Below the pieces are notes generated by a model. It was given only the letters and a program-made list of their open reading frames with translations. It did no database searches and was not told the DNA's origin. 64,000 bases of DNA from positions 372,001 through 436,000 of the forward strand of contig OZ020524.1 of the NCBI GenBank assembly GCA_963971425.1, read 5' to 3'. Source of the DNA: Bryoerythrophyllum caledonicum (taxonomy: Eukaryota > Streptophyta > Bryopsida > Pottiales > Pottiaceae). Shown piece after piece: positions 3,124 to 53,590 of the stretch; within the stretch, counting starts at the first letter, position 1; each line of letters begins with the position of its first letter. The position numbers were made by a program, and so were the translations under genes.

Positions 3124-3462
3124 TGTAGTGCCTTACTGACCAGAGTCGTAAACGATAAAATCGTTAAGACTCAATCCGGGTGTGATGAACCAGAACCGGG
3201 CTCCAACCGTTATAAACGGAATCGGAATCTAACGGATATAACCAAAACCAACTAAGGGAAATGATTACTAGACGACTAATAAACAGTTATGCCAGAAGGC
3301 AAGCTCCTCATCTTTTCTTGCTTCGATTTCTTGTCATTTAGTGGCGCTGGAGGTAAAGGGTAGTTGTCGTGTAAAGAAAGATCGATAACCACAACAGATC
3401 GAGAGTCCTAACCAACATCAAATAAACGAAAAACATACACTAAAATGAGTATACGTAATACA
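3124..3462 (-). repeat. 3' LTR of the methyltransferase-bearing gypsy element
   Basis: On the minus strand the segment begins TGTATTACGTATACTC directly after a G-rich polypurine stretch and ends CACTACA, fitting the TG..CA borders of an LTR of about 339 bp. Diverged copies of its start and the adjoining internal sequence recur near 28,250-28,705 and 46,975-47,060, which supports the border. The matching 5' LTR was not found. Confidence 0.65.
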
Positions 3463-3785
3463 CCCTCAAGTGCCCCCCTTAGCGGATAAAGAGACCCTCT
3501 ATCCAGCTAGGACCAAACAACACTAATAAGACTAAACGCCACGGTGATGTCGCTGCAACAACTGTACGCATCCAGCCAAAGATGTCGCCGTCATCGAATC
3601 AATAAGCATATGAAGAAGTAACAAAGAGATGGTAGGCCGGGTGCAATGTGAGCCCCATCTTTAATCGCCTTAGGCAATTTTGTTGCCAATCCCTTGGTCA
3701 ATCTCCACGTTGCCTATCCCTGAATCGAAATCAGGAACTCCAACTGGATGGCAACGTACCACACAATGACAAGTCCACGAGGAAT
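3463..3785 (-). promoter_or_regulatory. 3' untranslated region with polypurine tract and conserved 38-bp block
   Basis: Lies between the pol stop and the 3' LTR. The minus-strand sequence next to the LTR (3,463-3,480) is AAGGGGGGCACTTGAGGG, a likely polypurine primer for plus-strand synthesis. At 3,631-3,668 is a block with the core GATGGGGCTC and GCACCCGGC. It recurs in both gag-only elements (11,325-11,363 and 15,161-15,198) and in a relic near 28,516. Its role is unknown; conservation between different element types suggests a cis-acting replication or packaging signal. Confidence 0.55.
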
Positions 3786-5120
3786 TCAAGCCGTTTCATC
3801 GGTTGAAATGTGACTCGAAGACCTCCGACAACGAGGGCAAGTCCAATCCCCGGACGGTAGAGTAGAGAGAGGCGGCATCAAGCAAGCCATATGCCAACCA
3901 CGCTGGCAATGGTCACAAAGCAACATAGTAGCCGCACCCTTCTTCTCACCACACACAAAACATGGAAGACCCTGTGGCACAATGGCCAACTCAGGATGCA
4001 CGGAGCCATCAATGGGCAAATGGCAGGGGGCGCAGTTCTTGGAGTGCTCCCGACACTCCCGGCCATCTTTGCCTTCCAGCAACAAGATGCCACTTGGCAA
4101 CACATCCTTCACACGAAGAATGGTGCGCCCGGCCTTGACGTCTAACGTCGTAGGCGCCTCACGTTGCAAATAAACGTAATCTCCAGTGGAAAAACGCCGC
4201 AACTGAGGTCGATAAGCGCCGCTGCGAATGCGAGCGTACCGTAACGTGTTGCGCTGCTGAGCGATAGATAAATTCTCCATGGCCATTGGCATGGCCCGCT
4301 TGAAGAACTCCGCCCGATCACGCAGACACTGGATCCAGACCTCTGGATCATCCAAGTCCACAACTGGGGCCAACTTCTCCCGTACAGAATTGGGTAGAAT
4401 CGGCTCCCGTCCGTACAACAACTGATACGGACTGAAAGCGGCCAAAGAGGCCTGCCGGCTAAACCGGTGTCCCATGGCGATCCATGGTATCATCAGATCC
4501 CAATCACGGTGGCCACCCTGAAGTAATCCATACTTCCGTAGTCCACGCTTGACGGTCTGAACCACACGCTCCGCCAAACCGTCTGCTTCCGGATGATCCC
4601 GAGAAGTGGTACGGTGGTCAATGAAAGCCTTGGTGCACAAAGCCTCGAAAGCACCAAGGAACTCACGCCCTTGGTCAGTCAACACCTCAGCTGGAGCTCC
4701 AAAACAAGCGAGCACCCGGTCAAGAAATGCCATGGCCGCCAACTCCGAGGAGTTCTGTGGTAGTGCCACAAGCTCAATCTACTTGCTGAAGTGCTCCACC
4801 ATCACCAACACATACTTGGCTCCACGTGGGGTGACAACAAGTGGCCCGGCAAAATCCAGAGACCAACGCTAGCCCAAACCCATGATGGGCAAAGGCTGCA
4901 ACTGTGGTGACAAGGTGTTGAAGTTGGATCTGACCCGATCACAGACTTCACACCGTGAAACGTACGTGGCAACCTGCTGATACATGCCGGTCCACCAATA
5001 TTGACTGTGCAACATCGAATGAGTCCGCCGGACGCCAAAATGACCAAGGTCTTCGTGTACCTGCCGTACCAACGAAGCCCTCTGATCCGGTCTGGGAACT
5101 ATGCGCCTAGTTCCATCCGG
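3786..5120 (-). pseudogene. Integrase with HHCC zinc domain, DDE core and C-terminal PHD finger
   Basis: Inserts the retrotransposon cDNA into chromosomal DNA. The zinc-binding region (about 4,930-5,070) shows H-x4-H and C-x2-C. The catalytic core shows LDFAGP, TDQGREF and GLAERV, giving the D, D and E residues with family-like spacing. The last 45 residues before a short tail (3,828-3,962) form a PHD finger: C-x2-C, C-x2-C, H-x2-C, C-x2-C, with the tryptophan two residues before the last pair. PHD fingers often read histone H3 tails, so this may replace the chromodomain of other gypsy integrases as a targeting module (inference). Two in-frame TAG codons (4,869-4,871, 4,779-4,781) interrupt the frame; both fall where family members usually have tryptophan. 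The frame ends in TGA. Confidence 0.88.
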
Positions 5121-6137
5121 CTACAACCGAAATAGAAGGTCGTTCTCCCAACGGAACCTCGCTATCCGGTGTCCAACTCGATCGCGCTCCATGGCCGAAA
5201 GAACGGACGGAAGTGTGCCATGTTGCAGCTTGTGCAAGATAGGAACGTCTTCCCACACGTCGCTAATAACCTGGGCCTTGTCCGATTCCTCATCTGCTGC
5301 CATATCAGGCAACGCCGACGTGGATCCGGACATCAATGTGAGGTAGGCTGCTGCATGCCACCCCGGGACTGACTCCCTGTCACAGTCCCCATGCCACCTG
5401 ACACCAGTCAAATCTTCCTCCGATGGACTTGGATTGCGAGATAGACCATCCGCATCCAAGTTCGTGATGCCCGCTCGGTGTACAACCTCAAAATCATACT
5501 CCTGGAGCAACAAAGCCCACCTGGCAAGCTTGCCAGTAAGCTTGTCAGACTCCATGAGCCACTTCAAAGGCTGGTGGTCGGTCACCAAAGTAAAACGCTG
5601 CCCATACAAGTAGGGTCTAAAATGAGCTATGGCCCAAACCGCGGCCAAGGCCTCCCCCTCATAGGACGAATAGTTGGACTCCGCGTTGTTGTTGCTCCTA
5701 GAAGCAAACGCCACAACGTACTCCCGTCCTTCATCATCCTTTTGAGTCAACACGGCTCCCAATCCTACCGCACTCCAATCCGTGTGCAAGTGGAAAGGCC
5801 GTATAGCATCTGGACGTCGCTGTACAAGCGCTGAACCGAGCTTCAGTTTCAAAGTAGCAAACGTCTGCTGCTGCTCCCGTCCCCAAGTCCATGGCTGATC
5901 CTTCCCCGTGAGAATAGTCAACGGCTTGGCAATCAAGCAGAAGTTCTTGACAAACCGGCGATAGTAATTTGCTAGGCCAAAAAAAGCTCTTAGCCGTGAC
6001 ACGTCGATTGGGGCTGGGATCTTCTGCAGCGAGTCAACCTTCGCCTGCTGCACGCCAAGACCTCCTCGAACAATCATATGTCCCAAGTATGGCAACCGGT
6101 CATGGAAGAATTTGCATTTGCCATGGTGCAAGCGCAA
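5121..6137 (-). pseudogene. RT connection and RNase H domains
   Basis: Continues the reverse transcriptase. The N-terminal third carries YLGH and the LRAFFGLANYYRRFVKNF block typical of gypsy RT thumb/connection regions. The RNase H part shows HTDWSAVGLGAVL (first acidic residue), EGEALAAVWA (second), TDHQPLKWL (third) and the closing VVHRAGITNLDADGLSR, so the active-site acids are present. RNase H removes the RNA template during cDNA synthesis. The frame is the same as the neighbouring RT and integrase, interrupted by TAG at 6,144-6,146 and at 5,121-5,123. No frameshift is needed across this part. Confidence 0.9.
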
Positions 6138-6143
6138 TCCCCA

Positions 6144-6929: not shown

Positions 6930-8201
6930 CTACTTGGTAGCAGAGAGGGCATTAATGCCCCCAGACCCCTCACTCACGGGATCTACAGAAAATCCCATGT
7001 CGTGATGATAAAACTGGGAAAAGATATCTCGAGCATCCTCACGGCCAAAGTCCTCTTCCAAGGCTACAAAGACACGCTGAGCACGAAGCTCATCAGCTCC
7101 ATGCCTCTTCAAACGAAAAAGCAACTCCGCTTCCTCGATCTCTGTGAGATGTGGCACCGCTGCCCCCTGACCATCAGAGTCTGCCCCCAGCACGCATGGA
7201 TGGTCACTTGAACGGCGTTGAGCGGCGAAACAGAGGCCACATATCCAAACAAGGGTGTTGAGGTCAATGGCTTGATCCAACAAATAACGGCGTTGGCCCT
7301 CAAAGATATCCGGTGCGGCGGTGGTGCCTGTCAAAAAGCCCATCGCCCGCTCCCTCTCATCGGCAGAAGGCTCCTCGAAAGTTTGGGAAGAAGAATCCCA
7401 AACCATGCTCGGACAGCGTGTCCTGAAGGCAAAAGAGCCTGGATAGCACATCAAAGTGGGAAATGCCCCCCGAGTGAAACCAACGCGGTTGACCACCGCC
7501 AATGGTGGCTCATCATCCTTTGTAACCTCCGTGGAAACACGGTGGTTGTCTAAAATGTCATCGACCTCACGGCGCACGGGCCGTTGCACTTGAGCAAGTG
7601 CAAAAGTGAGCGTCGTGGATGATGCCATGTTGGTCCAAATCCAACGTGGCCGATGGGCGTAAGATCCCAACGCCGTGGCATCAACAAACGTAGGGGGACC
7701 AAGAAGGTGATGGATGTACGCCCCATCCTCACGCACTTTCGTCCGTGTATCTCCCAATAGGGGTACATTCTCAAAAATGTACCCCGGTGGTGTCGATTGG
7801 TGGGTAATCCACCACTGGACGAGCCTGAGCAAATCCGCAAAGAGACCCGACCGTGGATCATCCAAGCCACGTCCACTTCCCGCCCGTGAGTGGCCTTGGC
7901 AAGGCCATCCGGCAATCACCAAGTCCACGTGACCTAACTAGCGAAGATCATCCTCACTGATCAACGTCACATCACGTGGCAACTTGCCAAAACACCCTCG
8001 AATCGCAGAAGATGGTAACTACTCTGGATACAACGCCAAAAGACGCTGAATGTGATGGTGAGCGGCACGGTTGGCTGTAAAGCCACTATCCACGTGGATA
8101 TACCGTCGTACCTTGAGCCCGGCCTCCAACACAGCCGCGAGCCCCGTACCGATACTGGCAAATAACTCCACAAGGGTAATACCCTCAACGGTGGTCGCCA
8201 C
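6930..8201 (-). pseudogene. DNA (cytosine-5) methyltransferase domain inside the retrotransposon polyprotein
   Basis: Would transfer a methyl group from S-adenosylmethionine to C5 of cytosine. Motifs are in the usual, unpermuted order: I (LVELFASIGTGLAAVLEAG, cofactor binding, near 8,140-8,175), IV with the catalytic PCQ (GWPCQGHS, 7,896-7,904), VI (FENV, 7,764-7,772), VIII (HRPRW), IX (ADERERAMGF) and a motif-X-like QAIDLNTLVW. A linker of about 90 residues leads to RT. TAG codons at 8,019-8,021 and 7,938-7,940 interrupt an otherwise continuous frame. The protease upstream is in another frame, with the switch near 8,195-8,205. Methyltransferases captured by retrotransposons have been reported in Klebsormidium and dinoflagellates (de Mendoza and colleagues 2018), so this fits a known but rare class. 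Confidence 0.9.
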
Positions 8202-8647: not shown

Positions 8648-9172
8648 TGTGGGGCTCCATTTCCACATGGTGTCGGAGTTAACTTTAAATCCGGTTAAAA
8701 CAAAAAAATTAGTTAAGTAGTTATGATAGTTTCCACTAGGATTCATCCTATAGTCGTCAGAAAAGAATAATGACGAATGGATCGGGTTGCGAACCCTAAT
8801 TAAGCCAAAATCTGTTAAAATCGGAGCCGGAGGAGTTACCGGATTTTAGGGGCAGACAGTTATTCGGAACCGTCAGCCAGAACTGTCGCCATCAACTGTC
8901 ATCATGACTCCGTACTAACTGCCGGACTACTTAAGGATGGGGTTTGGGGGGAGAACTCTTTCTTCTCCATTCCTTCGTCGCGTGCAAGGTTTTCGTCTTC
9001 AGGCTTTCTTCCTCTCCCTCTTTCACTTCCTCGCTCCCGGTTTCTAATCTCTGGCCGTTACGGTTTGAAGCTTAGACGGTTCGAACGGACGTGTGTCCGT
9101 TAAGGAGTGCTTTTGTGAGGACGGTGCGTGCAGGGACTACCTTGAGAGACGGTGAGGATTTAGGAGGCCCTC
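8648..9172 (+). other. 5' non-coding leader of the outer gag-only element
   Basis: Begins with an imperfect TGTGG..CCACA inverted repeat, a feature also at the start of the inner element (TGTGGG..CCCACA, read on the minus strand). The segment near 9,108-9,150, with GTGCGTGCAGG, matches the inner element's leader near 13,585. No coding frame is seen. It probably contains the promoter and primer-binding site, but neither could be pinpointed. Confidence 0.5.
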
Positions 9173-10168
9173 ATGAAGTCTGTACCGATGGCTAAGAAGA
9201 AGAGGACGGATAGAGACGGGCGCGACAAAAGAGACGAAGAGCCGGCCGCGGGACTTCCCCCTTTGGCCCGAGTCCTTCCGGACATCCCCGAGGACCTGGA
9301 CGAATTTAACCTCCTGAAGTCGAGCCTGAAGACTATGGGGTGCGAGGGTTTGCTCGAAGTCCCCTGGGGTATGCGGGAAGAGGTCTACGTCCAGGAGCTT
9401 ATCGGCGCTCCGGACAAGAAGTACCAGGGGTTACTGAGAGCCCATCCGGAAAACTTGGGAGTTCCGGAATGGTCCTAGGCGTACGACTTCCGGGGCGGAC
9501 GCACCAAAGTGGTGGAACGACGAGACGAATTCTTGGTAGACAAATTTGCGAGTCCGGCTGACCCAAAGGACGGCTACAACATGCAGGACCTTCGGCATCT
9601 GGACGCCCAGCTCGTGCTAGGGTTTTTAAACCCTATCTTCCATCCGGAAAAGCCGAAGCGGGTGGTGGCAAAGTGGGCCTGCACCTTTCTCGGGGCACTC
9701 CGGAAGAAGATAGTAGTGGATTGGGGAACGCTTATGACGGACATGATCAACTGTCTGGTAGCCAACCTCCAGAGGGTGAAGAAGACGGCAACCCCCTTAG
9801 CCTCCTATGTGGTGCACCTCTATGCACACCACCAGCAACTCACTACGGCGGAAGTCCGGAAGTACGATATCGTCTTCAACTTCCAGAAGTACGGAGGGGA
9901 CGAGTCTGAAGAGGAAGAATCCAGAGAGGGAGAGCCAGCGCCGGAAGCAGCCACCACCAGCACTCCGGAGGGCCGGAAGGCTCCAAAGAGACCTCGGGGG
10001 AAAGAACCTGCGACGGAGAGTCCGGGCATCCGTAGCTCTTCTGCATCATCCGGAGAAGACGAGTCTGGACCCTCAGAAGGGACCAACCGGAAGAGGAGAA
10101 AGGTGGACCGGGACGACTCCAAGGGTCAACTCAAGCTGATGGATGAGCTCACCCACGACATTGGCTGG
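9173..10168 (+). pseudogene. Gag-like protein of outer element, N-terminal part
   Basis: Begins with a lysine/arginine-rich segment, then a helical region containing KTMGCEGLLEVPWG, NPIFHPEKPKRVVAKWA and a VDWGTLM block, then an acidic, serine/proline-rich stretch and a basic NRKRRKVDRDD. The same blocks occur in the inner element's protein and the older relic at 22.6-25.3 kb. They resemble a plant-specific retrotransposon Gag/'putative plant transposon protein' family (assignment from memory, not searched). A TAG at 9,476-9,478 interrupts the frame. The coding sequence is broken at 10,168 by the inner element and resumes in frame at 14,021 after the duplicated GCTGG. Confidence 0.7.
10164..10168. 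repeat. Target-site duplication GCTGG, left
   Basis: GCTGG precedes TGTTGCAG at 10,169 and follows ..CCCACA at 14,015 (copy at 14,016-14,020). Removing one copy with the insertion rejoins the outer gag in frame at D-I-G-W-R. Confidence 0.88.
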
Positions 10169-10455
10169 TGTTGCAGTTTGTAGAGTAAGTATTCCTCCGG
10201 ATAACACTTAGTTGGAGCTAAATGTGCCCGGAATGGTCGCTCTAAATTCGTTCCCTCAGAGATCTATTGCTTCTTCTTGGAATGATAAGTAAGCTATCTG
10301 CTATCCTTCTACCACACGCCAGTTAGCATTCCTATTCTACGCCTTATCTATTCATCTGGATTCCTCCGGACGTCCGATGTGGTTTCCTACTATTTTCCGG
10401 ATCCTTCCAACTTCCGGAAGGTCAGATGGAGTTTTTCTTCCGGAGTTTTTAAACG

Positions 10456-10538
10456 AGTGGCCGGGTACCACTGATCCTATTTGTGTAAGTGGCCGGATTC
10501 CCCACTGCCTTGTGACTTTAAGTGGCTAGACACCCACT
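10456..10538 (-). promoter_or_regulatory. Array of three AGTGG..CCACT hairpins (inner element)
   Basis: Three short inverted repeats AGTGG(7-9 nt)CCACT lie at 10,456-10,472, 10,488-10,506 and 10,521-10,538, spaced 32-33 bp. The same array is at 15,641-15,724 in the outer element. Function unknown; see findings. Confidence 0.6.
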
Positions 10539-10595
10539 CTCCCTATATTGCTAATCGGTCGTTGGTTTGTTGTTTTTGGATGCACTCTCTCACAT

Positions 10596-10617
10596 TATCC
10601 GGAAGGCCTTCCGGATA
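10596..10617. repeat. 22-bp perfect palindrome (inner element)
   Basis: The core ATCCGGAAGGCCTTCCGGAT is flanked by T and A, giving a 22-bp perfect palindrome. The same 20-bp core is at 15,532-15,551 in the outer element. Confidence 0.75.
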
Positions 10618-11393
10618 TGGTCACTCAGAGGCTCACCCAGGCTACAACAACATTCTGGGGGATGATTAGTGGTTCGGTGAGGTGTGAAGGGTAGATCGGC
10701 AGTTGGTCTTCCTTCTAGACATACACCACAGGCTTTTCCATCTATCGTAAGGGGAAATTCCGGTCGCAACCAGAATCCGGGTTCACACGGAGTCTCCGTG
10801 CCCTAGGAGCTACCAGGCCCACCACCTAAAGTACCCTCCCTCCCCCTCCAGGCTTCTCCCGCTCACCAAGGATCGTCAGACTCGATCTAACCTCTCCTTC
10901 AGCTGTTCCGGGCGCTCTCCCACAGCAAGTCCCAACCGATTAGACTAGATGCTTATCTGTGAACCACTTCAGCTTCCACAACTATTCCTCTAATCATCAA
11001 CCACAATGGGCCCTATCTTTCATTCACGAAATGATATATGCCAACATAACTTCAAGACGAGAAAGTATACTAACAGCAAATATCCTTCGGGAGGAAGAAA
11101 AAAGACCCTAAGCCAGCTACGGCTCCCGTCTCAAGAGCCCGCTACCACTGATCTAGAAACGGATCTAAGAAACTAAAAATCCGGAAAATCCTATTCTAAA
11201 AGTGAAAGGGATATTATCCCTAGAAATCCGGAATTCAAACTCAGATCCGAAAGTTTCGGATCTGAGATCCGATTTCTACGGATCTAACTCAAAACTAAAA
11301 AAAACTGTCTTTAGTCTTACCGCATGATAGCCGGGTGCAAACTTGAGCCCCATCGTTAATCACTATCAGACTTTTAGCCCTAAAGATTCTAAT

Positions 11394-13605
11394 CTACGGA
11401 GTTACTTGGTTCCGCCTCCGACTGCTACGGCGTGAAGGGGTAACCTCTGCTGGAACGGTGCCGGCCTCGGTTTGCGCCGGAGTGGCTGCTAGTGGCTCCG
11501 GTGAGGTGGTCGGCGTCGGCATACCTGGTCCGGATGTTGCATCCGGGTCCTCTGTTGTGACTGCCTGGCCGGATGGTGCATCTGCACGGTCTTCAACGTC
11601 CGAAAGGTCCCGGAAGCTACCGCTGGGGCTGACCACCATGGGTGTCGCTGCCGAGCTTCCGGGTAAAGGGTCCGTCACTGGTGGCCCCGGAGAGAGAGAT
11701 TCTGAGGGAGTTCGGAAGGGCAAGGGTGGTACTGCCTGACTCTTGGCACCTGTTCCCACTTCTGCATACTCTCCGTGCTTGGGAAGGCCACCCCATTCCA
11801 ACTCATAGGAGAGCTGAAATTCGGCGTTCCCACGAGATCATTGAACTGTCCGGTGAGTGACTTTGCTGTTCCAGATGCAGGGCTGGGTGAAGAGCCGGCC
11901 GGAGGTTGGGTGGGAGAAGCAGCTGCCGGACCGGGTGGGGATCCGGACGGGCGTGCAGTGGTTCCGGACGGATCTGCCTGGGTTCCGGATGGTCCCGCAG
12001 CGTCTGGAGCAGGTGGTGCCGGAACTGGAGGGGGAGCTCCTGGTACTGTTGAGGTGGCCGCCACAAGATCCCTTGCTAGCTCCTGCATCTTGGACCAGGT
12101 GCTCTCCATTTTCCGGCTGTGATCCACCAGGAACCGGATCACATGCCCCCTGTTGAACTTCTCGTTCTTCTCCAAGCTCGTTGTGTAGAGTAATGCCCGG
12201 TTAACCGTATCCACCAGGAACTCCAACGTTGTGCGAATATCGGTCAGTGTCTGTGAAGTTGCCCGGACCTTTGTTTCTGCCACCACTCGGGCATGCTGTG
12301 CTGCATCCCGTGCGGCTTCCGCCTGCCGGACCTGATCCCAGAGCCGGGTGTTTACCTTGGTTATGGTGGCGTTCTCCTGCTCCAGTCTTGTGACGGAATC
12401 GTGCTTCTCCTTCATCTCTCTGAGCTGGGCGATGAGGTGAGTGGTGTCCTCCAGTCCGACTACCTCTAGGATGGCCATGATCATGGCATGCCTCTCCCGG
12501 ATCTCTCCTTCTTGGATCCTGGTCCTCCAGACAATATGTCTGCAGAGCTCGTGGACGTCCACGGGAATGTCTCCAATGATGCTTGGGACAAACGTCGGTC
12601 CCGGCTCTGATCCGTTCGCGAATCGTTCGTCTTCTGGGGCCGGTTCCGGTGCCGTTGCCTGCGCTGCGGTTGGTGGTGCTACGGGTGGGCTCTGCGCCGG
12701 GATTGTTGACAACGGCCGGCAAGCTCCCGGGGTCTCCGGAGTCCTCTGCACCGAACGACTCCGCTTCCGGTTTGGTCTTCGAAGTATGAAGGGGGATGAC
12801 GACTTCTCCGTGTCAGAGTCCGTCGATTCATCCAGTTCCTCATCTGTTTCCATCCCTCCGTATGACTGGATGGTGAGCAGGCTATCGTACTCGGCCTGCT
12901 CATCCGGACCCAACATCTTCTGCTTGGCGTACATGTGAGCCAGGTAGGTGGAAAGCGGGGATGGGGTTTTCCGGGCTTTCGGCACGTTCTTCACCATCCT
13001 ATCAATCTGCTCGTCCATGATGGCCGCCTAGTCGACGGACAGCTTCCCTCTCATCGAGCCCAGGATCAGTGTTGCTAGCTTGGCCACTATCCGTTTCGAT
13101 TTCTCGGGATGGAAAATAGGGTTGAAGAATGCCATTACTAACCTGGCGTCCGGATCGGTGAGGTCGCTGAGGACATACCCGTCTTTAGGGTTACCCTACG
13201 CGCGGAATTCGCCCTTCAGGATGGCGTCGTCACGTCCGCCACCTTGATTGTTCCCGCCCGGAACTCGTAGGTGTCTCTCCAGAGTGCCGTGGTCCAGACC
13301 TCCGGATGCGCCCTAATCTTCTGCGCGTATTGGCTTGGTGGCTCTCCCAGGAGCTCCGTCATCATCGTTTCTCTCTGGAAGGCCCACGGTGTCGCTAGAA
13401 GACCTTCACAACCCATGATCTCGAGGTAGCTCTCTAAAACCCGACAGGTCTTGACCGGCTTCGGAATCTCCGGAGTCACCTTCTGCAGCACCAGTGTTTT
13501 GGTAGCCCGAGCCTTGCCCTTCTTGCCCGCCATCCGTGCCCACCTCTCCGTGAACTTGCGCCTCGCAATGTTGTCAAGAAATCCTGCACGCACTGTCCTT
13601 ACCAA
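11394..13605 (-). pseudogene. Gag-like protein of inner element, with frameshifts
   Basis: Collinear with the outer Gag. The N-terminal segment (13,605-13,216) carries EIMGCEGLLATPW. A different frame (about 13,200-11,675) carries NPIFHPEKSKRIVAK, SPLSTYLAHMYAKQ, an acidic/serine region, a coiled-coil-like stretch rich in Q, E and R, and HVIRFLVDHSRKM. A third frame (11,801-11,394) carries the proline/serine-rich tail with SPSGSFRDL and a basic end. At least two frameshifts therefore separate the blocks. In-frame TAG codons occur at 13,196-13,198 and 13,028-13,030; the second replaces the tryptophan seen at the equivalent site in the outer protein. No zinc knuckle is visible. The coding sequence is dead in this copy. 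Confidence 0.7.
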
Positions 13606-14015
13606 GTCCCTCTTGCTAACCTAATTTGGCTCTACCGTCCTTCACCAAGACCGGATCCAAAACCCTAAGAGAATGCGAGAAGTGGACAGAGAATGAGCCT
13701 GCTGGAAACCCTAAAAGATTGGTGCACAGGGCTGCCAGTCGCGTTTTGTATCTGACGCACTTGTACGGAAAACCGTTATGCGTCATGATGGCATTTCCGG
13801 GTCCGGCTGTAACCGTCCTCCGGTTTTGCAACTTCCGGGAAGGGTGCTGTAACTACCTTCATCAGGAATTCCGGCGCAGCACTAAAATCTTATTCTGTTC
13901 TATGAACTACTTATGCTCTTATGGCCGACTAACTAACTAATTTTTCTAATTTTTTTCTTATTTTCTTCCGGATTTGGTATTAAGTTCCGGAAGTATGTGG
14001 GGACAGCTTCCCACA
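13606..14015 (-). other. 5' non-coding leader of inner gag-only element
   Basis: Terminal TGTGGG..CCCACA inverted repeat, then AT- and CCGG-rich DNA up to the gag start. The part near 13,585-13,610 matches the outer element's leader. Nothing coding is seen. Confidence 0.5.
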
Positions 14016-15093
14016 GCTGGAGGGTTGGGCTCCTCAAGGAGACCAACTACATCATCACCAGCAGCGTGGAACCAATCTTCCGGAGTCTGGGCGTCGAACG
14101 GCTGGAGGACGCCATTAACAGGGTGGAGGAAGTCCGGAGCCGAGAGGTGGGATCGAAGGCGCTGCACACTCAGATCGCTTCTCTATACAAGGCAAGTAAC
14201 GATATGGAGAGGAAGATGAAGCAGTACCTAGCGGAGGCGGCTGTGGCGGTGAGTCGGTGACGGCCCGGAAACTGGCCGAGAAGAAGGCCAACGCTTCCGC
14301 AGCGGCTTTACTGGAAGTCCGGGCCTTCTTGGACATACCGGTCGACGTGATCAACCGAAGCCGGCTCTTCACCGAGCTGGTGGAGAAGAAGGAGAAGGTC
14401 ACCCGGGCCAACATCATCCGGTTCCTCCTTGACCAGGCTGACAAGATGGGAAGGACTTGGGAGCAGATGAAGGTGCTAGTCGACAACATTGTCGTCGAAT
14501 TTCCGGAAGAACCTGCAGCACCTGGACCGGAAGGCACGCCGACCACAACTCGAACAAGAGCCACTCCGGAACCACCGACCAAGACCACCCCAGCGCCGGG
14601 AACCTCCGCGAATCCGGAGTCCTTGGATACTCCGCCACGGACACCAACGGAGGGGATCGTGCCCCCTAATCTGAGTACCAGCGAGATCCTGAAGACGCTT
14701 CCGAATCTCCTGTCGCCACCCACTATGCGGCTTCCAGATCCTCCGACAGAGGGCGGCCTTCCAGCTCCTCCAAGGTCAGTGTCATGGAGGTTAGCATCCG
14801 GAGCCAGGAGTCCGTCCGGAAGCTACAGGGACTTGGTCCAAGAGACCGGGTCAGTTTCCGCGGCAGGTACCCGAGCACCTCCGCATCCGGAAGGATCTCC
14901 GGCCCAGCCCCCTCTACCACCGGACGCCAGGACTCCAGTGGTGGTTGTTCCCTCACCAGCCGGCCCGGCCAACAGGAAGACCAACCTTTCCCCGGCGGCT
15001 TCAAAGAAGGCAAAGGGTAAGGCGCGCGTTCCGGTGGAGATTTCCCCCTCCCACCGGAGTGGGAGAAATCGGGGTCCCGCTGCTCCTACTTAG
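14016..15093 (+). pseudogene. Gag-like protein of outer element, C-terminal part
   Basis: Continues the frame of 9,173-10,168 after the nested element. A helical segment (SSVEPIFRSLGVERLEDAINRVEEV) runs to about 14,250, where the frame shifts by one base. The following frame (14,257-15,093) carries LLEVRAFLDIPVDVINRSRLF and RANIIRFLLDQADKM, equivalent to blocks in the inner protein and in the 24.6-kb relic. The proline-rich tail contains SPSGSYRDL and ends in a basic SHRSGRNRG, matching the inner protein's SPSGSFRDL and basic end. A nucleic-acid-binding role for the basic tail is inferred. Confidence 0.7.
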
Positions 15094-15530
15094 GGTTAAA
15101 CTAGGTTGTAAGTTTCTTTTTGTTTATCTCTTTTTCTCAGGGTTAGAGTCCGGATCAGCAGCGACTAACGATGGGGCCCCAAGTGCACCCGGCTGCTACC
15201 GGAATCAATAGCCAGGTTTTGTTAGAGAAGGAAGTCCGGAGTCCAGGAACTGTTCCGAGATTTTAGGATCTGAGATCCAATCTGGGACTTTTCCGGATTT
15301 CTCGGATCTTTTAGATAAGATCTAGCGGATTTCCCGTAGTCATAGGTAGAAGGAAATCGTGTTAAACTGATCTCCGGTCAATACCGGAGTTCTCCCCTAA
15401 GATAGGAAGAAAAAGCTTGATACCAGTTACTAGATAAAATAACCATAGCGAGCCATGAGTCTCTGATCCGGAAATTTACAGTCATACCCCCCGGAATGCC
15501 GTTGTAGCCGGGTTAGTCTCTGCGTGACCG

Positions 15531-15552
15531 CATCCGGAAGGCCTTCCGGATG
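15531..15552. repeat. 22-bp perfect palindrome (outer element)
   Basis: The core ATCCGGAAGGCCTTCCGGAT is flanked by C and G, giving a 22-bp perfect palindrome about 90 bp before the hairpin array. The inner element has the same core and order. Confidence 0.75.
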
Positions 15553-15640
15553 TCGTGAGAGTCGAAGTCCGGCAACAGCAATCGAATTACCAGTTAGCAT
15601 AGTAGGAAGAGTGTTGTTTGGTCACTCTAAGAATCCGGAC

Positions 15641-15724
15641 AGTGGGTGCCTAGCCACTTTAAGTCATAGGGCAGTGGGAAACCCAGCCACTTACACAAAA
15701 CCGGGTCAGTGGACTCCGGCCACT
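15641..15724 (+). promoter_or_regulatory. Array of three AGTGG..CCACT hairpins (outer element)
   Basis: Inverted repeats lie at 15,641-15,658, 15,673-15,691 and 15,708-15,724, spaced 32-35 bp. Stems are five base pairs (some extend) with 7-9-nt loops. The array is conserved in position and spacing in the inner element. Confidence 0.6.
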
Positions 15725-16031
15725 CGCTTAAAAACTCCAGGAGACTCTCTGAGGAGGAACAGAGACTAATCAAACTACCCTCCTGATTTCCGGAACCTCT
15801 TTTCCGGAAACCATTGTATAAAATTTGGATCCGGACGGATCCGGATCTGACCTAAAAAATATAGGACTGTAGCTAACTCGTAACCGAATTGCTTTGGTAA
15901 GATTAGTAATCCGGGGTATGGGAAGAAGATATTTAGGTCTCTGTGGGAACGAACCGGAGCGGTTACTTTGGGGAGCTTTTAGTGACGATTGGGAGTAACC
16001 CGGAAGAATACTGTCTCTACGAACTGCAACA

Positions 16032-16036
16032 ACAGC
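16032..16036. repeat. Target-site duplication ACAGC, right
   Basis: Second copy of the five bases at 8,643-8,647, directly after CTGCAACA. Confidence 0.85.
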
Positions 16037-17365
16037 GCACTGAAGGGAGACATGGGAGAACAATGGACCAGATCCCACGCCAAACATCAAGTGCAACGGA
16101 TGTCGGGTGTAGCCCATGGCCTTCTCCGTGCCCCCAACCGATGTAACAATCGTGAATGGACAAGGCTCGAGGTCCAAAGCACCTAGACCCAAATCCTGGG
16201 CTAGCTGCTTGCCAATCATCACTGGCTGAGCCCCAGAATCCAACATAACACGTAGGGGGGTAGCTTGAGTGGAGTTGCCATCCGTACGGCCTACCACCAT
16301 GACTCCATCGTCATTCACCAAACGTACCACCCCTGGACGCACACTGCGTCGCTCCCGTGCCGACCGGGCTGCAACGTCAGACAAATAAGCCACTCCAGAG
16401 ATCAAGGCCCGATCCCCGGACGACTGCTCCATAGGTGTGGAAGTGGCATTGGCCTCAAACGCGGAAATAGCCTCCGCCGCCAACTTGGCCCGCATTGCCA
16501 CCAAATCCTCCTCAGTGGGTGGAGCGGTCACTGCCTGTGACACCTCCAATGACGGAATGGGCACCTTGCCTTCTAACATACTACCCGCCAAGTGGAATAC
16601 ACCGGATGGTTGAAAATCCGGTGTGAGAAAGTCCACACCAGCAAACACCGGCAATAGCAACACCTTATACGCCAAGGTGTGTGTAACATCTCCAAGACTG
16701 GAAGAAACCGGTGGGACCGGAATCGAAGTGGGAGCAGCAGTAGAAGTAGCCGCATCCGCGATGTTGAACGAAAGAGGGAGCCGGGACTGACCAATGTGGT
16801 CCGGCAAACCCGCATGACGTGAACGACCGCTACTACCCGGCACAGTGGAAGAGGGTGCCACCGCCTGTGTAATGGTCTGAGCACGAGTGGCAACCGCTGC
16901 CACCACCTCCCCCGAAGCGCCATACAAGTAGCGATCTAAGGCTGAAGATGAGCCCTGACCCGTCACCACTGGCCGTGTGTGTGCCACTTGCCCCAAAGAA
17001 GCCATCGCGCTCATCTGCTTCTTTAGCTCCACCAATTCGGATTGAAGTGACTTCACGGCATCCGATCCAACAGCCGAAGATCTTGGGTGCTTCTCCGGGT
17101 GAAGAGAAAAGCAGTTCTCATCACTGTAGCCAGGCTTGCCACATTGACAGCATGTCACAAGCTTCTTCCACTTGCCCCCAGTCCTCTCCGTAAGCTTGGC
17201 CGCCTCGGTCTTGGGCTTGGCCTTCGTCACCACTGCCTCCTTCTTCATCGGACAATTGGGGTCCCCCTTGGTGTGACCGGCCTCTCCACAAGCCCAACAA
17301 TGCACAACCTTTTCAGGTTGTGCTTCTGCCAAATTACTAGTCGCCGTAGCAAGCTTCTTGGGCTT
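16037..17365 (-). pseudogene. Zinc knuckles and aspartic protease of the gypsy element
   Basis: The nucleocapsid-like part shows CWACGEAGH..C (17,252-17,299) and a second knuckle CCQCGKPGYSDENC (17,111-17,152), where the zinc-binding histidine is tyrosine. A serine/threonine/alanine-rich linker follows. The retropepsin signature LDSGA is at 16,232-16,240 (DSG), followed by QLAQDLGLGAL and a second half that continues at 8,642. The protease would cleave the polyprotein. The frame continues past 16,037 into the inserted element, giving about 90 unrelated residues. Upstream it joins Gag in frame once the 17,371-19,971 insertion is removed. Confidence 0.85.
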
Positions 17366-17370
17366 CGGAG
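17366..17370. repeat. Target-site duplication CGGAG, left
   Basis: CGGAG precedes TGTAAGCCC at 17,371 and follows ..CACTCACA at 19,971 (copy 19,972-19,976). Removing one copy and the insertion joins Gag to the zinc-knuckle frame. Confidence 0.85.
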
Positions 17371-19971
17371 TGTAAGCCCAAAAATAGACCCCCTAAGAGA
17401 ATCAATTTTTAAACCTACAAGGTCCTATTGTTACACCACTTAAACCATTCTTTATGCTTAACTGTAAATTCTAATTTTTACTGGATTTGGATCTTTGGCA
17501 TATCTATTTATATATTCAGAATTTAATAGTACTATTACTTTGACCCAGTTAAGTGGACTCGGTTAACTTTTCCTTGTAATCAAACACTTAACTCTGGATA
17601 AATTTAAATAGGTCTAAGTAATTATCTAATTATTTGTTATGGGATAATTATTATTATTATTTTTTGGTTTGTTTTATTTTATTATTTTATTATTTTGTGT
17701 TTAGGTCGGATGATCAGGCCTGATCCAGATCCTGTTTTGTGGCAGCAACTTCGGCAGCCCTTATCTTTTGATTCGGGACTCCGAATCCAAAAACATTTCC
17801 TCTCACAATGATCAGCAACTCATTTCCAACTTGAATGAACCACTTAGAACCAATACCAGCAGGCCGAGGACATAGAAACTACCATCACAAGAATTTTCCA
17901 TGCACCAACGATCTCAACACATCATTATGAACCAAAGACGAACTGATGCATACAAAATAGAGTCAATGGGCTGTCGACCGGTTCAGCTCTGATGGAACTT
18001 GTGGCCAAATACCTAATTCTGGCAAAAATTTACCAGCGCTTTCGCATGAGATTCAGCCACCAGAATTTGAACACCTTGCTCCTCGCAGCTCTCCAACACC
18101 TTCTCTCCGGATCGCACCGCGCGCGCAGGCTCTTGATCTCTCGCACACACGCCCGCAGCTCCGCGACAAGCCGGGTGACGACCTCCGGCAATTCACACCA
18201 GACTCACACTTCGACACAACACCTGTGGTCAGAGGCGTTTACAAACGCCGGCACCCTCCAGATCGATCCTCCTCCTCGAGTCTTCTCCAGCTCGTGCCAA
18301 CTCCTCCGTGCACTCCAGCGCGCTCTCTCAACACCAAAAAAATAAAAAAAACGGCTCTCTCTCCCGAGCTCAGAACCATACCTCGTGATCAATTCACGGA
18401 CCCCGCAATCCCAGCAGCCACAACACCGACCGCCTCACACACACAAGAAAAGAAAAAAAAATAAGCATAAAAAAAACCCGCACCTCACACCTCGCACACC
18501 CTCTTGCGAGCCTCTCCTCGCCGAACAGCTTCCCGGAACCGAGCCCAGCTCGCGCGAGCTCCTCTCTCTCCGCGCACTCCGCGCGTTCTTCCCCCAAAAA
18601 ACCACATAGGTCCGCAGCTCGCCCACGCTCGCGGGAACTCCTCTCCCACGCAGCCGCGACGCATGCACACGATTCTCCTTTGCGCGCCCAGATGCGCACC
18701 TCTCAACAAAACAGCACCACGAAAAACCGGAGAGCTCCAGCCTCTGATCCTCCAGCTCCCCTGCTCGCAGGAGCTTCTTGCTCGCGCGCTCAGCGGCGCA
18801 CCTCTCCCAACAGCACACAAAAACGAGAGCTCCAGCTCCCGATCCTCCAGTTCTCGCACACACAGGTGCGCAAAGAAAAAAACGACTCTCTCACACAGGT
18901 GCCCTAAAAAAAAAGAAAACAACACACGAAAACAACGAGCTCCAGCTCGCTTGCTCGCAGGAGCTCCTCTCCCACACGCCGATCGCGGTGCACACACACT
19001 CACACGATTCTCCTTCGCGCGCCCAGCGGCACCTCTCGAACGGCTCTCCAAAAACAGAGAGCTCCAGCTCTCCTCGCCAGGGATTCCGCCTGGCTCCTCC
19101 CTTCCTCCTTTTTTTTTTCCTTTTTTTTTCTCTGCCTATTTCTTTTTCTTCCCCGACAAGACTGGCTTAGTTTTAATGAGGCAGCCCATGACCTCTCACA
19201 AAAGTGCAGGATTGGCTACTTACAGCCGTTTTGGCATGGTTTAAATTTATCACGAGCATTAACTCGCCGCTTTGCTCCTGACAAGCCTCCCTAAAATTAA
19301 ATCCATGGTGGCAAGAATTGTCATGTGGCATGTGCATGGGAAAGCACATCCAACCACTTCCTTTTTCTTTTTTTTCTTTTTTTTCCATTTTTCTTTTTCT
19401 TTTGATCTTTTAAAGACTATTACACTAGATCTAATACTATCTACTGATGACTTTCAATTTACTTATAAATTCAAAAACTAACCACACAGCCGGACTCCCA
19501 GCACCCTAATTAGTCTACCTTAATTTCCTTAGCATTTTTTAAGGTTCCTAAGTATTTTTCCCGAACGGCCAACCCGCCGATCCACTAGTCAAACCCTAGA
19601 AATAAATAGCAATTCAACTCGGAAAATTCTAGAAATCTTACCACTACTTCTACCTGCTAGGAGACACTCTTCCAATTTTTCCCATATTTTTTGACCCATT
19701 TCTCAAATTTTAGTCATTTTCCAAAGACTTTTCTTTCCATTGTTTATCCTTTTCTTCATTTCCATTCTACTTCCACTACACTTTCAAGCATATTAGTAGG
19801 AAGGAGGACGAATGGGAAGTTTAATGTCACATCATGGCTCTAGGCCTATTAATCTAGGAATTTGACCCTAATAGATGGGTTGTCCACCAATTTAACTAAA
19901 ACTTGGTTAATACTATCAAAAAACTCAAAAAAATGAAGAAAAAGAGTGAGGGCGCACTTTGGCCACTCACA
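17371..19971. mobile_element. 2.6-kb TG..CA insertion without coding capacity (large solo LTR or non-autonomous LTR element)
   Basis: Begins TGTAAGCCC and ends CACTCACA with a CGGAG duplication, as expected of an LTR-retrotransposon product. No protein domain is recognisable. I did not find the left end repeated at the right, so a solo LTR or a deleted element are both possible. The middle (about 18,100-19,170) is a CT-rich, degenerate tandem-repeat region. GCTCTGATGGAAC near 17,986 faintly resembles a primer-binding complement but is weak evidence. Confidence 0.65.
18480..19110. repeat. Degenerate CT-rich tandem repeats within the 2.6-kb insertion
   Basis: Recurring units contain GAGCTCCAGCTC, CTCGCAGGAGCT, CTCCTCTCCCACA and CACGATTCTCC followed by GCGCGCCCAG (for example near 18,668 and 19,006). 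Units are imperfect and irregularly spaced. Open frames across this region on both strands are by-products of the low-complexity sequence. Confidence 0.55.
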
Positions 19972-20970
19972 CGGAGCATCCATGAGCGACGTGACCAAGT
20001 CTGTGGCCTCGCTCACACCCAACGCCCGGTCAAGCGCTTCCACCTCGGCGAACGCCTGAGCCAAGGTCGCGTTGCCGTGGTACCGGAAGAGCAAATGCGG
20101 ACCGATCAACTCTACCATCCGCTTGTCGAGCTTGGAGATAAAAATCTTCACAAGCTGGCGCTCCGTGAAGACATCACCAACCTCCGCCGCCAACCGCGCC
20201 AACCGTGTGTACATGGTGCGTGGCGTGTCTTCCTTCTCACGGCGGAAGTCCTGCATGCGGTGCATCTGATCGCGCCGAAACCCCCCGTACTCCACCTCCA
20301 GATGCGCCATGAACTGCGCCAGAGGATCGAAGGCTGGCGGGTTGCTAACCGCCACCAATGCCGCACGTGTGGCTACGGCCAAACGAGACATGGCCCTCAT
20401 GCCAGCTCGTTCGCCAACAATGGCAACACCGTTGCCCTTGGAGTCCTCACCGAGGAAACTCTCCTCCTCCATGGGCTCCTCGGTGGAAGTCGAGAGTTGG
20501 GCACCCGCACTCTCCTTGAGTGCAGTGACCAACTCCACACGCTGGCACCAATACTCCTCAACCGGGCGCAACTCTGCCTCGTGCTGCGTGGTCCACCTCC
20601 CATATGTCTGAAGTGCCTCCAGCTCCAAATGCTGGGGCAAAAGCTCGAACGCGTACCAATCGTTGAACGACAACGTCCGCTGGCGCTTCTCCTTCATCCA
20701 AGTTTGGAATCGGAGACGCCAATCGGGTAGGGAGATGCCCCCAGCCCGTCCCGAGAACCTGTCTCGCACAACATGACGGTGATCGTCCGCCATGTCGTCA
20801 AACGTGCCCACACTCCAGACCCGAAGCCTACGGTCGGTATCCAACGCCGAAACAGGCTCAAAAGCCTCGTCGGTATCCGACCCTGGCCCAAAGTCTATGG
20901 TGGAAGCACTCTCCGAGTGGTTTGGTGAGGGAGAGCGGTAATACCGACTCCGGGTACTCACCATAAACAA
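19972..20970 (-). pseudogene. Gag of the methyltransferase-bearing gypsy element
   Basis: Structural protein of the virus-like particle. After a short basic/serine-rich start and an acidic segment it has a helical Gag core: DRFSGRAGGISLPDWRLRFQ, FDPLAQFMAHLEVEYGG, RREKEDTPRTMYTRLARLA, FISKLDKRMVELIGPHLLFR, typical of gypsy Gag. The frame runs on into the insertion for about 35 residues (19,971-19,849); the true continuation is the zinc-knuckle frame at 17,365. No internal stop is seen. A start at the methionine codon near 20,970 or 20,964 is assumed. Confidence 0.8.
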
Positions 20971-22189
20971 AAACCACCTCGGGATCTATCTACGGGTACT
21001 ATCTAAAGGGTAAGGGTACGAACGGGCAACCTGCACTTGCAAAATCACCAAGCTGTGTGGAACACCGGTCATCACCTCCGGCTACCACAGGTCCAACCAC
21101 ATCCCCCCACATAGAAAGGTCTTGCCGGCCATAAACCCGACTTCACCCCTACGGTACCCTATCACAAACTAGAACAACAAGAAATGGGGCCACCGGAAAA
21201 CACCGGCAACAAGCCCGCAACACGGGGGAGGTACCGCACAAGAATCCAGAAATCAAAACCGGATCCTCTCCCCCAACAACATAAAAGCAGGAAAATGAAA
21301 GAGACAGCGCCACTGGCACACGCCTGCAGTGGATGCCTCAAAGTCGCAAAACCTGCAAATCAAAGAGAAACACCGCAAGGTGTTCCTCCAATGTCTAAAA
21401 ACTAAGGAGGTAATAGAATCCTATGGTCACGGTGTTCAAAAACACTAGTCCCCCAACGAAATTCAAACCATGGGTGACAAACGTGCCAAAACGTCAATCC
21501 AATACTAGAATTGGATAAATGACGAGATTCCTTAACTATAAATGCAAGTTTCACTCAAAACTAGAGTAAAAATGCACTAGCTAATTACCTCCGAAGTTAG
21601 ACACTAAACATTTTTTTTTTTTTATTAATAGGTCACATAAACATGTGATTGTTTTGAAGACACCTAAAAAATGTCGGTTTTTGAAAGTGCTAAAAACCTA
21701 AATTTTACTACACCATAAGGCTTATAATTCCTCTGCGAACTCAAATCCGCAATCGGAATCCAGAAATAATCAAAATTGCAAAAGTTAAAATTTTGATGTT
21801 TTGGTCCAGGGATGTGCTGAAATTTCAGCCCAAAAGTGACGGTTTTAGGAACTTCGGCACGGTTTAGGGTCCCTAACGGAAATACGTACCCAACAGATTT
21901 GCGACCCAGCGGATGAAAACTGCCGCAGTGGATGAAAAACCACCGTGGATGAAAAATCGCGCGGCGGATGAAAAATTCGCACAGCAGGTCCAGAAGCTGA
22001 TCCACCTTGCTCCAATCTTCTACCGCTCACAACTTCTTCAAAAATTGTCCAAATCGCACGCCGTTTGTCGCATTAGCTTCCTCTAAACGCGCTCTACGAC
22101 ATCATGCTAAGTACCCACAAGTTTTTCTCACAATTTCTAGCTCCATAAAACGAGATCTAATTGTAGAAAATGGAGGGTCTTTGTCAAGT
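20971..22189. other. Gag leader and flanking sequence; no gene recognised
   Basis: The first few hundred bases are moderately GC-rich and probably the untranslated leader of the gypsy element. A copy of its 339-bp LTR is not visible, so the 5' end is missing or too diverged. From about 21,660 the sequence has repeated GGATGAAAA words (21,910-21,980) and other LTR-like features belonging to the next relic. No coding sequence is supported. Confidence 0.4.
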
Positions 22190-22555
22190 GAATCACATGT
22201 ATTTTCCACAAGAAGTCAAGCGACACGCACTCCACAAGGGGAGAATCAACGAGTGCAACTAAAGTAGAGAATGCAGAGCTTTCACTGATGATAAACCATT
22301 ACTTTACAAGCAAAAAACTCACTAATCACTCTCTAACCTCATTCACAAAGCTTGACTTGACAAAGACGTCAAGTCAAGGACGTGTGCGGCGCTATACGCA
22401 CACGCAAACAACCTTAAGTGGATGAAAATCATCCACAGTTGAAAACGGTGCGCCGCCGTTTGTCCCTAAACACACGTAGATTAGTAACAAACTAATCTAC
22501 GCTAAAATCTACGATACGGAGAGACCCTCGACGCCACGTCCCGTGACATAGTGAT
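22190..22555 (+). repeat. LTR-like repeat, copy 1 (related copy at 47,085-47,425)
   Basis: Shares with 47,085-47,425 an ordered series of words: TCCACAAG, CTCTCTAA..CTCA..CACAAAGCTTGACTTGACAA, GTCAAGGA, ACACACRTAGATTAG and ACTAATYTAC. It lies just upstream of a gag relic, so it is probably the end of its 5' LTR or leader. Confidence 0.5.
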
Positions 22556-52957: not shown

Positions 52958-53590
52958 GGATTGAATGGATTTCAACTTGAAAAATACAATAACTATTAAG
53001 AAAAGGTTGTCATATTTTTAATTTGTGATTCCTTTTCAAGTCCAACTAATTTCTATCTCTTCGTTGAATAATGTGTTAAATATTGAATCAAACATCTTCT
53101 TCAATCTACACTTTCAAAAAGAAGAGGTGATTGTTAATTTATTATCCATTTGAATTGAAATCCAATATCTTAGATGCAATAATTGTAAAATCATATATTG
53201 ATCAATCATTAGAAGAGATCTGTGTAGTAAGTTTTGCTCCAGGTCTGCCTCTTCCTCTTCTTCTATGTAGCCAAATTGGTAGCCTCCAGTATCTTCTTCT
53301 TCTAGTGGCTCATATCTATCCATGGATTGAATAGATTTCAATTTGAAAAATACAACAATTAGTAATAATAGGTTGCCATATCCTCAAATTTGTGATTCTT
53401 TTCAAGCCCAACTAATTTCTATCTCTTTGTTGAGTGATGTGTCAAATATTAAATTAGGCATCTTCTTCAATCTACACTTTTAAAAAAAAGTTGATCGTTA
53501 ATTTGAATCAAAATCCAATATCTTCGATGCAATAATTGTAAAATCTCATATTGAATAAACATTACAAGAGATTTGTGTAGTAATTTTTGT
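52878..53590 (-). repeat. 363-bp tandem duplication over the ATPase start region
   Basis: Copy A (52,878-53,240) holds the functional start; copy B (53,241-53,590) repeats the first ~33 codons ([20 protein letters not shown], start at 53,323) plus the upstream non-coding sequence, then diverges after ADLEQ. Copy B cannot encode a pump. It could serve as an upstream leader with an extra start codon, or mark a duplication of promoter-proximal DNA. Confidence 0.85.

Follow-up and report, generated by a model that had tools for sequence, protein, structure and literature searches.

What would a retrotransposon do with a DNA methyltransferase of its own, and how would it produce the enzyme? The question is raised by a 64,000-nucleotide stretch of the moss Bryoerythrophyllum caledonicum (OZ020524.1, positions 372,001 to 436,000; hereafter the window), whose minus strand holds a Ty3/gypsy-type element with a C5-DNA methyltransferase (DNMT) between protease (PR) and reverse transcriptase (RT). 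This arrangement had been proposed in an original prediction made from the letters of the window, and our analysis supports it. As read from its sequence, the window copy is a decayed member of a Ty3/gypsy-type moss family, maintained by selection, with a captured DNMT3-type methyltransferase.

All the methyltransferase motifs claimed for the locus (I, IV, VI, VIII, IX and an X-like one) are present. Motif I (LFASIGTGL) lies in a stop-free piece at 8255-8022, the domain starting at about 8186, and the piece 7937-6933 contains motifs IV (GWPCQG), VI (ENVP), VIII (HRPR), IX (ERERAMG) and the X-like LDQAIDLN. The latter piece matched PF00145 with 39.8 bits (E 4.7e-10; cut-off 22 bits), and a Pfam search of the 78-aa motif-I piece alone gave no match. 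The further claim that the domain shares one frame with RT is right as to reading phase, but an in-frame TAG (6932-6930) separates the two, and this TAG is a trait of the family. A single-sequence structure model (pLDDT 31) was useless.

The window copy, which runs from 22548 to 3365 with its ends and has a 4-bp ACTA duplication on both flanks, is dead, because it contains nonsense codons, a phase change and two interruptions of its alignment to intact copies. Nonsense codons break the DNMT domain (between 8021 and 7938) and the integrase (IN) part (between 4871 and 4779), and others directly follow the RT piece (6146-6144) and the RNase H (RH) (5123-5121); the end of the protease is out of phase with the DNMT, and the alignment breaks for 7.4 and 2.6 kb (Table 1). 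This decay, the conserved stop of a leaky type, the split-repeat ends with their duplications and the terminal PHD finger go beyond the original prediction.

The prediction would have failed had other copies of the family lacked the domain, leaving a one-off insertion. The host assembly (437 Mb, 894 contigs) gave 123 scored PF00145 matches from 1056 candidates, and several copies have long open frames; we inspected 20 DNMT domains, and one matched locus (L001) is clearly a different gene. The matches lie on large contigs (C1-C4, C6-C12, C14 and C15; none is listed on C5 or C13) as well as on small ones, which rules out contamination or a single insertion.

In five copies (L009, L010, L013, L014 and L017), a single stop separates open reading frame (ORF) 1, of 1353-1371 aa, from an in-phase ORF2 of 1041-1047 aa. 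In L009, ORF1 encodes a CCHC knuckle, protease and gag matches and the DNMT, and ORF2 encodes RT, RNase H, H2C2, rve and PHD domains; L014 is alike but has no knuckle or gag matches. The Ty3/gypsy order gag-PR-RT-RH-IN with a DDE integrase is thus present, RT, RNase H, H2C2 and rve scoring above the Pfam cut-off and protease and gag below it only, and the order across the family is gag-PR-DNMT-UAG-RT-RH-IN-PHD. The integrase motifs LDFAGPL, TDQG.EF and GLAE are all found in 13 of 15 segments (L010 lacks LDFAGPL; L024 has GLAE only). By eye and by similarity the copies form three groups, s1 (L009 type), s2 (L017 type) and w (the window copy, L011 and L014). A conserved ORF0 of 216-231 aa lies upstream of ORF1 in s1 and s2 (L009:62-709, L017:35-703 and kin), and Pfam gave no match for the L009 version.

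The stop itself is conserved together with its context. In 19 of 21 host junctions (L002 yielded none) the TAG is followed by CAACCA (s1, s2) or CAATCA (w), and TAG CAATCA also stands at the junction of L048, a relative (93% identity in the DNMT) whose contig is filed under a cyanobacterial metagenome-assembled genome; we infer that this contig is moss contamination. These 19 junctions and L048 match the definition of the type-I readthrough signal, UAG CAR YYA (PMC11166343; see also PMC2754532). The ORF1 end ALSATK recurs in several relatives found by protein searches (P0005, P0008-P0010 and P0064-P0066; nearly identical in P0003, P0013 and P0067). A genome-wide pattern with NNN at the stop matched 217 times and its reversal not once, although it fixes the following CAACCAAGG and hence does not test the hexamer; among the 100 matches listed, a hand count gave 93 TAG, 2 TAA, 2 CAG, 2 TCG and 1 TAC. 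A recoded host code with TAG read as Q is unsupported, since 12 of the 123 matched stretches hold a stop, three of them TAG, and the junction TAG is kept. Judged from these sequences, the stop after the DNMT is probably leaky.

The methyltransferase is of the DNMT3 type by its sequence: the profile of the catalytic domain is nearest to DNMT3 and not to DNMT2, the motif order is unpermuted, and catalytic motifs IV and VI are intact in 20 of 20 domains. A bacterial origin was rejected, as the bacterial and phage loci (L041-L047, L049-L052) match only partly, at 31-49%, and the profile favours DNMT3. The ratio of median dN to median dS between s1 and s2 is 0.05 for DNMT (dS 1.62), 0.03 for RT (0.90), 0.03 for integrase (0.77), 0.01 for RNase H (1.01), 0.08 for protease (0.68) and 0.04 for gag (2.26); accordingly, purifying selection on the DNMT is a little weaker than on RT, RNase H and integrase and stronger than on the protease region. 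Within groups, dN/dS of the DNMT is 0.12-0.23; comparisons involving group w are mostly saturated.

The ends of the element consist of two repeat parts, A and B, around the internal region (int). Five copies have the layout A1-int-B1-A2-B2 (c2a, c1a, c7, c4 and c14) and four the layout A1-int-B1 (c2b, c1b, c3b and the window copy). A script check of the nine copies with both outer flanks found a TG start, a CA end and an exact 4-bp duplication in all nine (CCTC, TCCG, AGCA, TAGT, GTGC, AGCT, AACT, CCGT and ACTA). None of them has a complete long terminal repeat (LTR) at both ends, the 5' end being A only and the 3' end B or B-A-B. The B-A junction is the palindrome GACA-GC-TGTC, whose central GC is missing from the outer ends; a G-rich tract precedes B1, and inspection by eye showed no tRNA-type primer site downstream of A. 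Within copies, A1 and A2 are 98.6-100% identical (six copies compared), and the insertions are therefore fairly young. L048 maps as a circle of 9158 bp with the GACA-GC-TGTC junction and a 126-bp terminal overlap. The five A-int-B-A-B copies have split direct repeats as in DIRS/PAT elements, but the tyrosine recombinase and lack of target duplication of that class do not apply: an rve integrase and duplications are present, and no tyrosine recombinase is among the Pfam matches of seven proteins from four copies. Two further repeat arrangements were observed: c9, outside the duplication check, has three A-B units (period 599) after B1 (L018:8191-9901 and L029:1-1318), and the window contains a solo A-B unit of this repeat type that is shortened and diverged (46949-47253).

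From the capture and upkeep of the enzyme, the stop and the ends, all of them read in the sequence, we infer readthrough, packaging, self-methylation and circle integration. That this selected, DNMT3-capturing moss gypsy family doses its methyltransferase by readthrough, methylates its own cDNA and integrates from circles has, in our estimate, a probability of about 0.6. The majority of ribosomes would halt at the UAG and give Gag-PR-DNMT, and a minority would read through and add RT-RH-IN-PHD; the DNMT would thereby be packaged in the particle at a Gag-like dose, where it would meet the new double-stranded cDNA and methylate it. The reverse-transcription repeat would be B-A, with the polypurine-like tract before B and the internal region after A. 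The integrase would cut the palindrome GACA-GC-TGTC within this repeat, most simply on a circle, with 2 nt lost at the cut as in retroviral 3' processing; a one-repeat circle would give A-int-B and a two-repeat circle A-int-B-A-B. HIV-1 and foamy-virus integrases are described as cutting palindromic LTR-LTR junctions (PMC1905944, PMC1180852). Methylation would precede insertion of the new copy into the chromosome, the PHD finger perhaps steering the integrase to silent chromatin, and pre-methylation would leave it quiet and tolerated. Put in full, the proposal that a land-plant gypsy lineage supplies a DNMT3 at Gag dose via tobamovirus-style UAG readthrough, and that its self-methylated circular cDNA is inserted by a palindrome-cutting integrase of retroviral type, is a tentative one and less likely than not.

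Several observations weigh against this scenario. Two host copies have no stop (the stretch is missing from L012, and L016 has CAG instead), and in the relatives P0031 and P0032 one uninterrupted frame spans DNMT and RT. Moreover, the copies are related, so that the 19 of 21 junctions amount to three groups plus L048 rather than 19 independent cases, and the genome-wide pattern, as said, is silent on the hexamer. The s1-s2 dS is unequal across domains (from 0.68 for protease to 2.26 for gag), and the domains, to judge from their sequences, may have separate histories by lineage exchange or conversion; because selection on the DNMT is a little weaker than on RT and dS differs between domains, our confidence was slightly lowered. 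The circle of L048 may be an assembly effect, given that assemblers can circularise repeated ends, and circle integration is one of several routes to A-int-B and A-int-B-A-B ends. The isolated Dnmt3 domain of KnitGypsy-Dnmt3, the element of the alga Klebsormidium nitens, produced no methylation in yeast, a test that its authors call inconclusive (PMC5890265). Finally, neither the self-methylation of cDNA suggested in the original prediction nor a steering of insertion was borne out by a footprint of CpG depletion: the observed/expected ratio is 0.47-0.84 in the element stretches measured and 0.42 in window positions 24001-64000.

It is rather unlikely that the enzyme serves steering and not self-marking, DNMT and PHD finger targeting or creating silent chromatin at the insertion site while cDNA methylation is incidental. 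PHD fingers commonly read histone tails. One closes pol in L009 and L014, and homology to L009 places one there in 17 of the 23 relatives with a mappable integrase; all of this speaks for steering. The DNMT of the moss family, however, is encoded before the stop, together with Gag and apart from integrase and PHD, and a Pfam scan found no PHD in the 1517-aa frame of L012. We consider it improbable that the UAG is a true terminator, with RT made by reinitiation, internal entry or splicing and a DNMT dose independent of readthrough. The absence of the stop from L012, L016 and some relatives would suit a terminator, but L048 and both group s and group w retain TAG with CAA YCA amid differing surrounding residues, RT resumes immediately in the same phase, and control stops vary or differ (ORF0: 10 TGA, 4 TAG and 2 TAA, overlapping loci; ORF2: TGA in 7 of 7). 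Equally improbable is a DNMT kept for a structural or RNA-directed role, or as a passenger: the inconclusive yeast result for KnitGypsy-Dnmt3 (PMC5890265) and the lack of CpG depletion agree with it, and the retention of motifs IV and VI, the low dN/dS and a profile nearest to DNMT3 and not DNMT2 argue against it. That the split ends are ordinary LTR elements after recombination or truncation is likewise improbable: the solo A-B unit and the three units of c9 would suit it, given that unequal exchange can make tandems, but truncation after insertion would not yield four A-int-B copies with matching duplications, and all nine copies of both forms have exact 4-bp duplications around their A..B ends.

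The family has relatives in other plants. A first protein search listed 63, including 14 under the name Marchantia polymorpha, one under Sphagnum fallax and three under Closterium, and a second, with 120 of 122 matches listed, added three named Calypogeia fissa and one further Marchantia protein; no Klebsormidium-named protein is among the relatives listed in either. The anticipated extension to land plants thus holds, as the host is a moss with relatives in Marchantia, Calypogeia and Sphagnum, and the range published for Klebsormidium is widened. The order RT-RH-DNMT-INT-PHD occurs in 13 of 183 listed relatives; a DNMT between RNase H and integrase is seen in P0036, P0041, P0051, P0054, P0058, P0060 and kin. 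Side variants are a DNMT at the N-terminus (P0063) and a motif IV reading WECQG, not WPCQG (P0031, P0032 and Closterium P0055 and P0061). A DNMT tree of 19 rows and an RT tree of 23 rows both set the 12 rows with RT-RH-DNMT-INT-PHD order apart from the rest (97/95 and 100/98); P0052, also of this order, was excluded by the coverage filter, and the placement of the long branches P0046, P0058, P0060 and P0063 is unsure. The RT tree contains DNMT-bearing gypsy relatives only, and because it has no DNMT-free one, the two positions of the domain may, on these trees, reflect either one capture followed by a move or two captures.

Retrotransposon-borne DNMTs have been described in several systems. 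KnitGypsy-Dnmt3 has gypsy domains, DIRS-like repeats and a DNMT under purifying selection (de Mendoza et al., 2018; PMC5890265), and the moss family shares with it these traits and the DNMT3-type enzyme in the coding region; in contrast, the moss DNMT lies in ORF1 with gag and protease, before UAG-CAAYCA and RT, whereas that of Klebsormidium lies in the Pol polyprotein ORF, and the moss family has a PHD finger, 4-bp duplications and TG..CA ends. The main text of PMC5890265 contains neither "PHD" nor "readthrough". The dinoflagellate SymbioDIRS-Dnmt3, which methylates in yeast, and SymbioLINE-Dnmt are independent captures (PMC5890265); they too are retrotransposons bearing a DNMT, but of other classes (DIRS with a tyrosine recombinase, and LINE). 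For streptophytes and dinoflagellates, a 2025 survey places DNMT3 in LTR Copia and DIRS elements (PMC12344493). Rice RIRE2, a gypsy element cited as a readthrough candidate for its in-frame gag-pol stop (PMC2754532), resembles the moss family in that respect, whose stop, unlike that of RIRE2, sits after protease and DNMT. The A-int-B-A-B layout is that of the split direct repeats of PAT/DIRS elements (Fig. 1 legend of PMC5890265), from which the moss family differs in its DDE-type integrase and 4-bp duplications. A literature search outside subscription journals, preprints and supplements found no land-plant DNMT gypsy element, UAG-CAAYCA junction or such 4-bp duplications, and the available parts of PMC6453930 and PMC8226300 hold nothing on DNMT-bearing gypsy elements.

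Table 1. Features of the window copy (window coordinates; sequence features read on the minus strand)
Feature	Position	Strand	Basis or remark
5' target-site duplication ACTA (minus-strand reading)	22549..22552	-	script check
Terminal repeat part A1, start TGTCACGG	22207..22548	-	90.7% to L014 A (356 bp), positions 1-341
gag-like N-terminal part of ORF1	19973..20985	-	alignment to L011/L014; no Pfam gag match in group w
Nested insertion breaking ORF1, missing from intact copies	17371..19972	.	gap in alignment to L011
C-terminal end of gag, zinc-knuckle-like motifs seen by eye, followed by the aspartic-protease region (LDSGAQPVMIG)	16032..17370	-	protease of intact relatives below Pfam cut-off
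Nested insertion of 7.4 kb, missing from intact copies	8648..16031	.	alignment gap
DNMT3-type C5-methyltransferase domain (by sequence), with nonsense codons	7214..8186	-	
ORF1 C-terminal tail, final residues ..ALSATK	6933..7213	-	
In-frame TAG, then CAATCA (6929-6924): type-I readthrough signal	6930..6932	-	
Reverse transcriptase, then nonsense codon	6147..6929	-	RVT_1, 81 bits
RNase H	5124..6143	-	RT_RNaseH, 131 bits
Integrase zinc-binding domain	4872..5120	-	H2C2, 68 bits
Integrase core (partial) and C-terminal part	3963..4778	-	rve, 24.8 bits, below cut-off here
PHD finger, end of pol	3828..3962	-	PF00628, 43 bits
G-rich polypurine-like tract directly before B1	3471..3481	-	by eye
Terminal repeat part B1, end TACACGACA	3365..3470	-	98% to L014
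3' target-site duplication ACTA	3361..3364	-	

Elsewhere in the window, a Tc1/mariner-like transposase ORF (45496-46251, by eye) lies between 557-bp inverted repeats that are 99% complementary (44038-46823), and stretches at 50623-53017 resemble, by eye, exons of a host gene for a plasma-membrane proton ATPase of plant type. In the assembly, L001 (C14:16014858-16018817) encodes an uninterrupted 370-aa dcm-like cytosine methyltransferase (218 bits) inside a 22-Mb contig; its stretch has 63% GC against 40% in the window, the two neighbouring ORFs have no Pfam match, and it may be a bacterial mis-join, a transfer or an endogenised virus. Two plastid rbcL types occur on three contigs (C894 and C590 versus C821), suggesting that C821 comes from a second bryophyte in the sample. 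The plastid accD of C894 matches a cluster of 236 members named Timmiella anomala, a moss, at 96% identity, ahead of a Sphagnum-named cluster at 86%, in keeping with a moss host; the chromosome of the window, as one of the large contigs, probably belongs to that moss.

Retrotransposon-borne DNMTs have so far been reported, in the literature available, from streptophytes (Klebsormidium) and dinoflagellates. A numerous, partly young and selected moss family with kin in Marchantia offers genetic models for self-methylation, and its conserved stop of a leaky type predicts the dose of the enzyme. The 4-bp duplications around split repeats make the action of an integrase on circular or permuted cDNA approachable outside retroviruses. 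If the proposed scenario is true, this retroelement would write its own silent mark ahead of landing.
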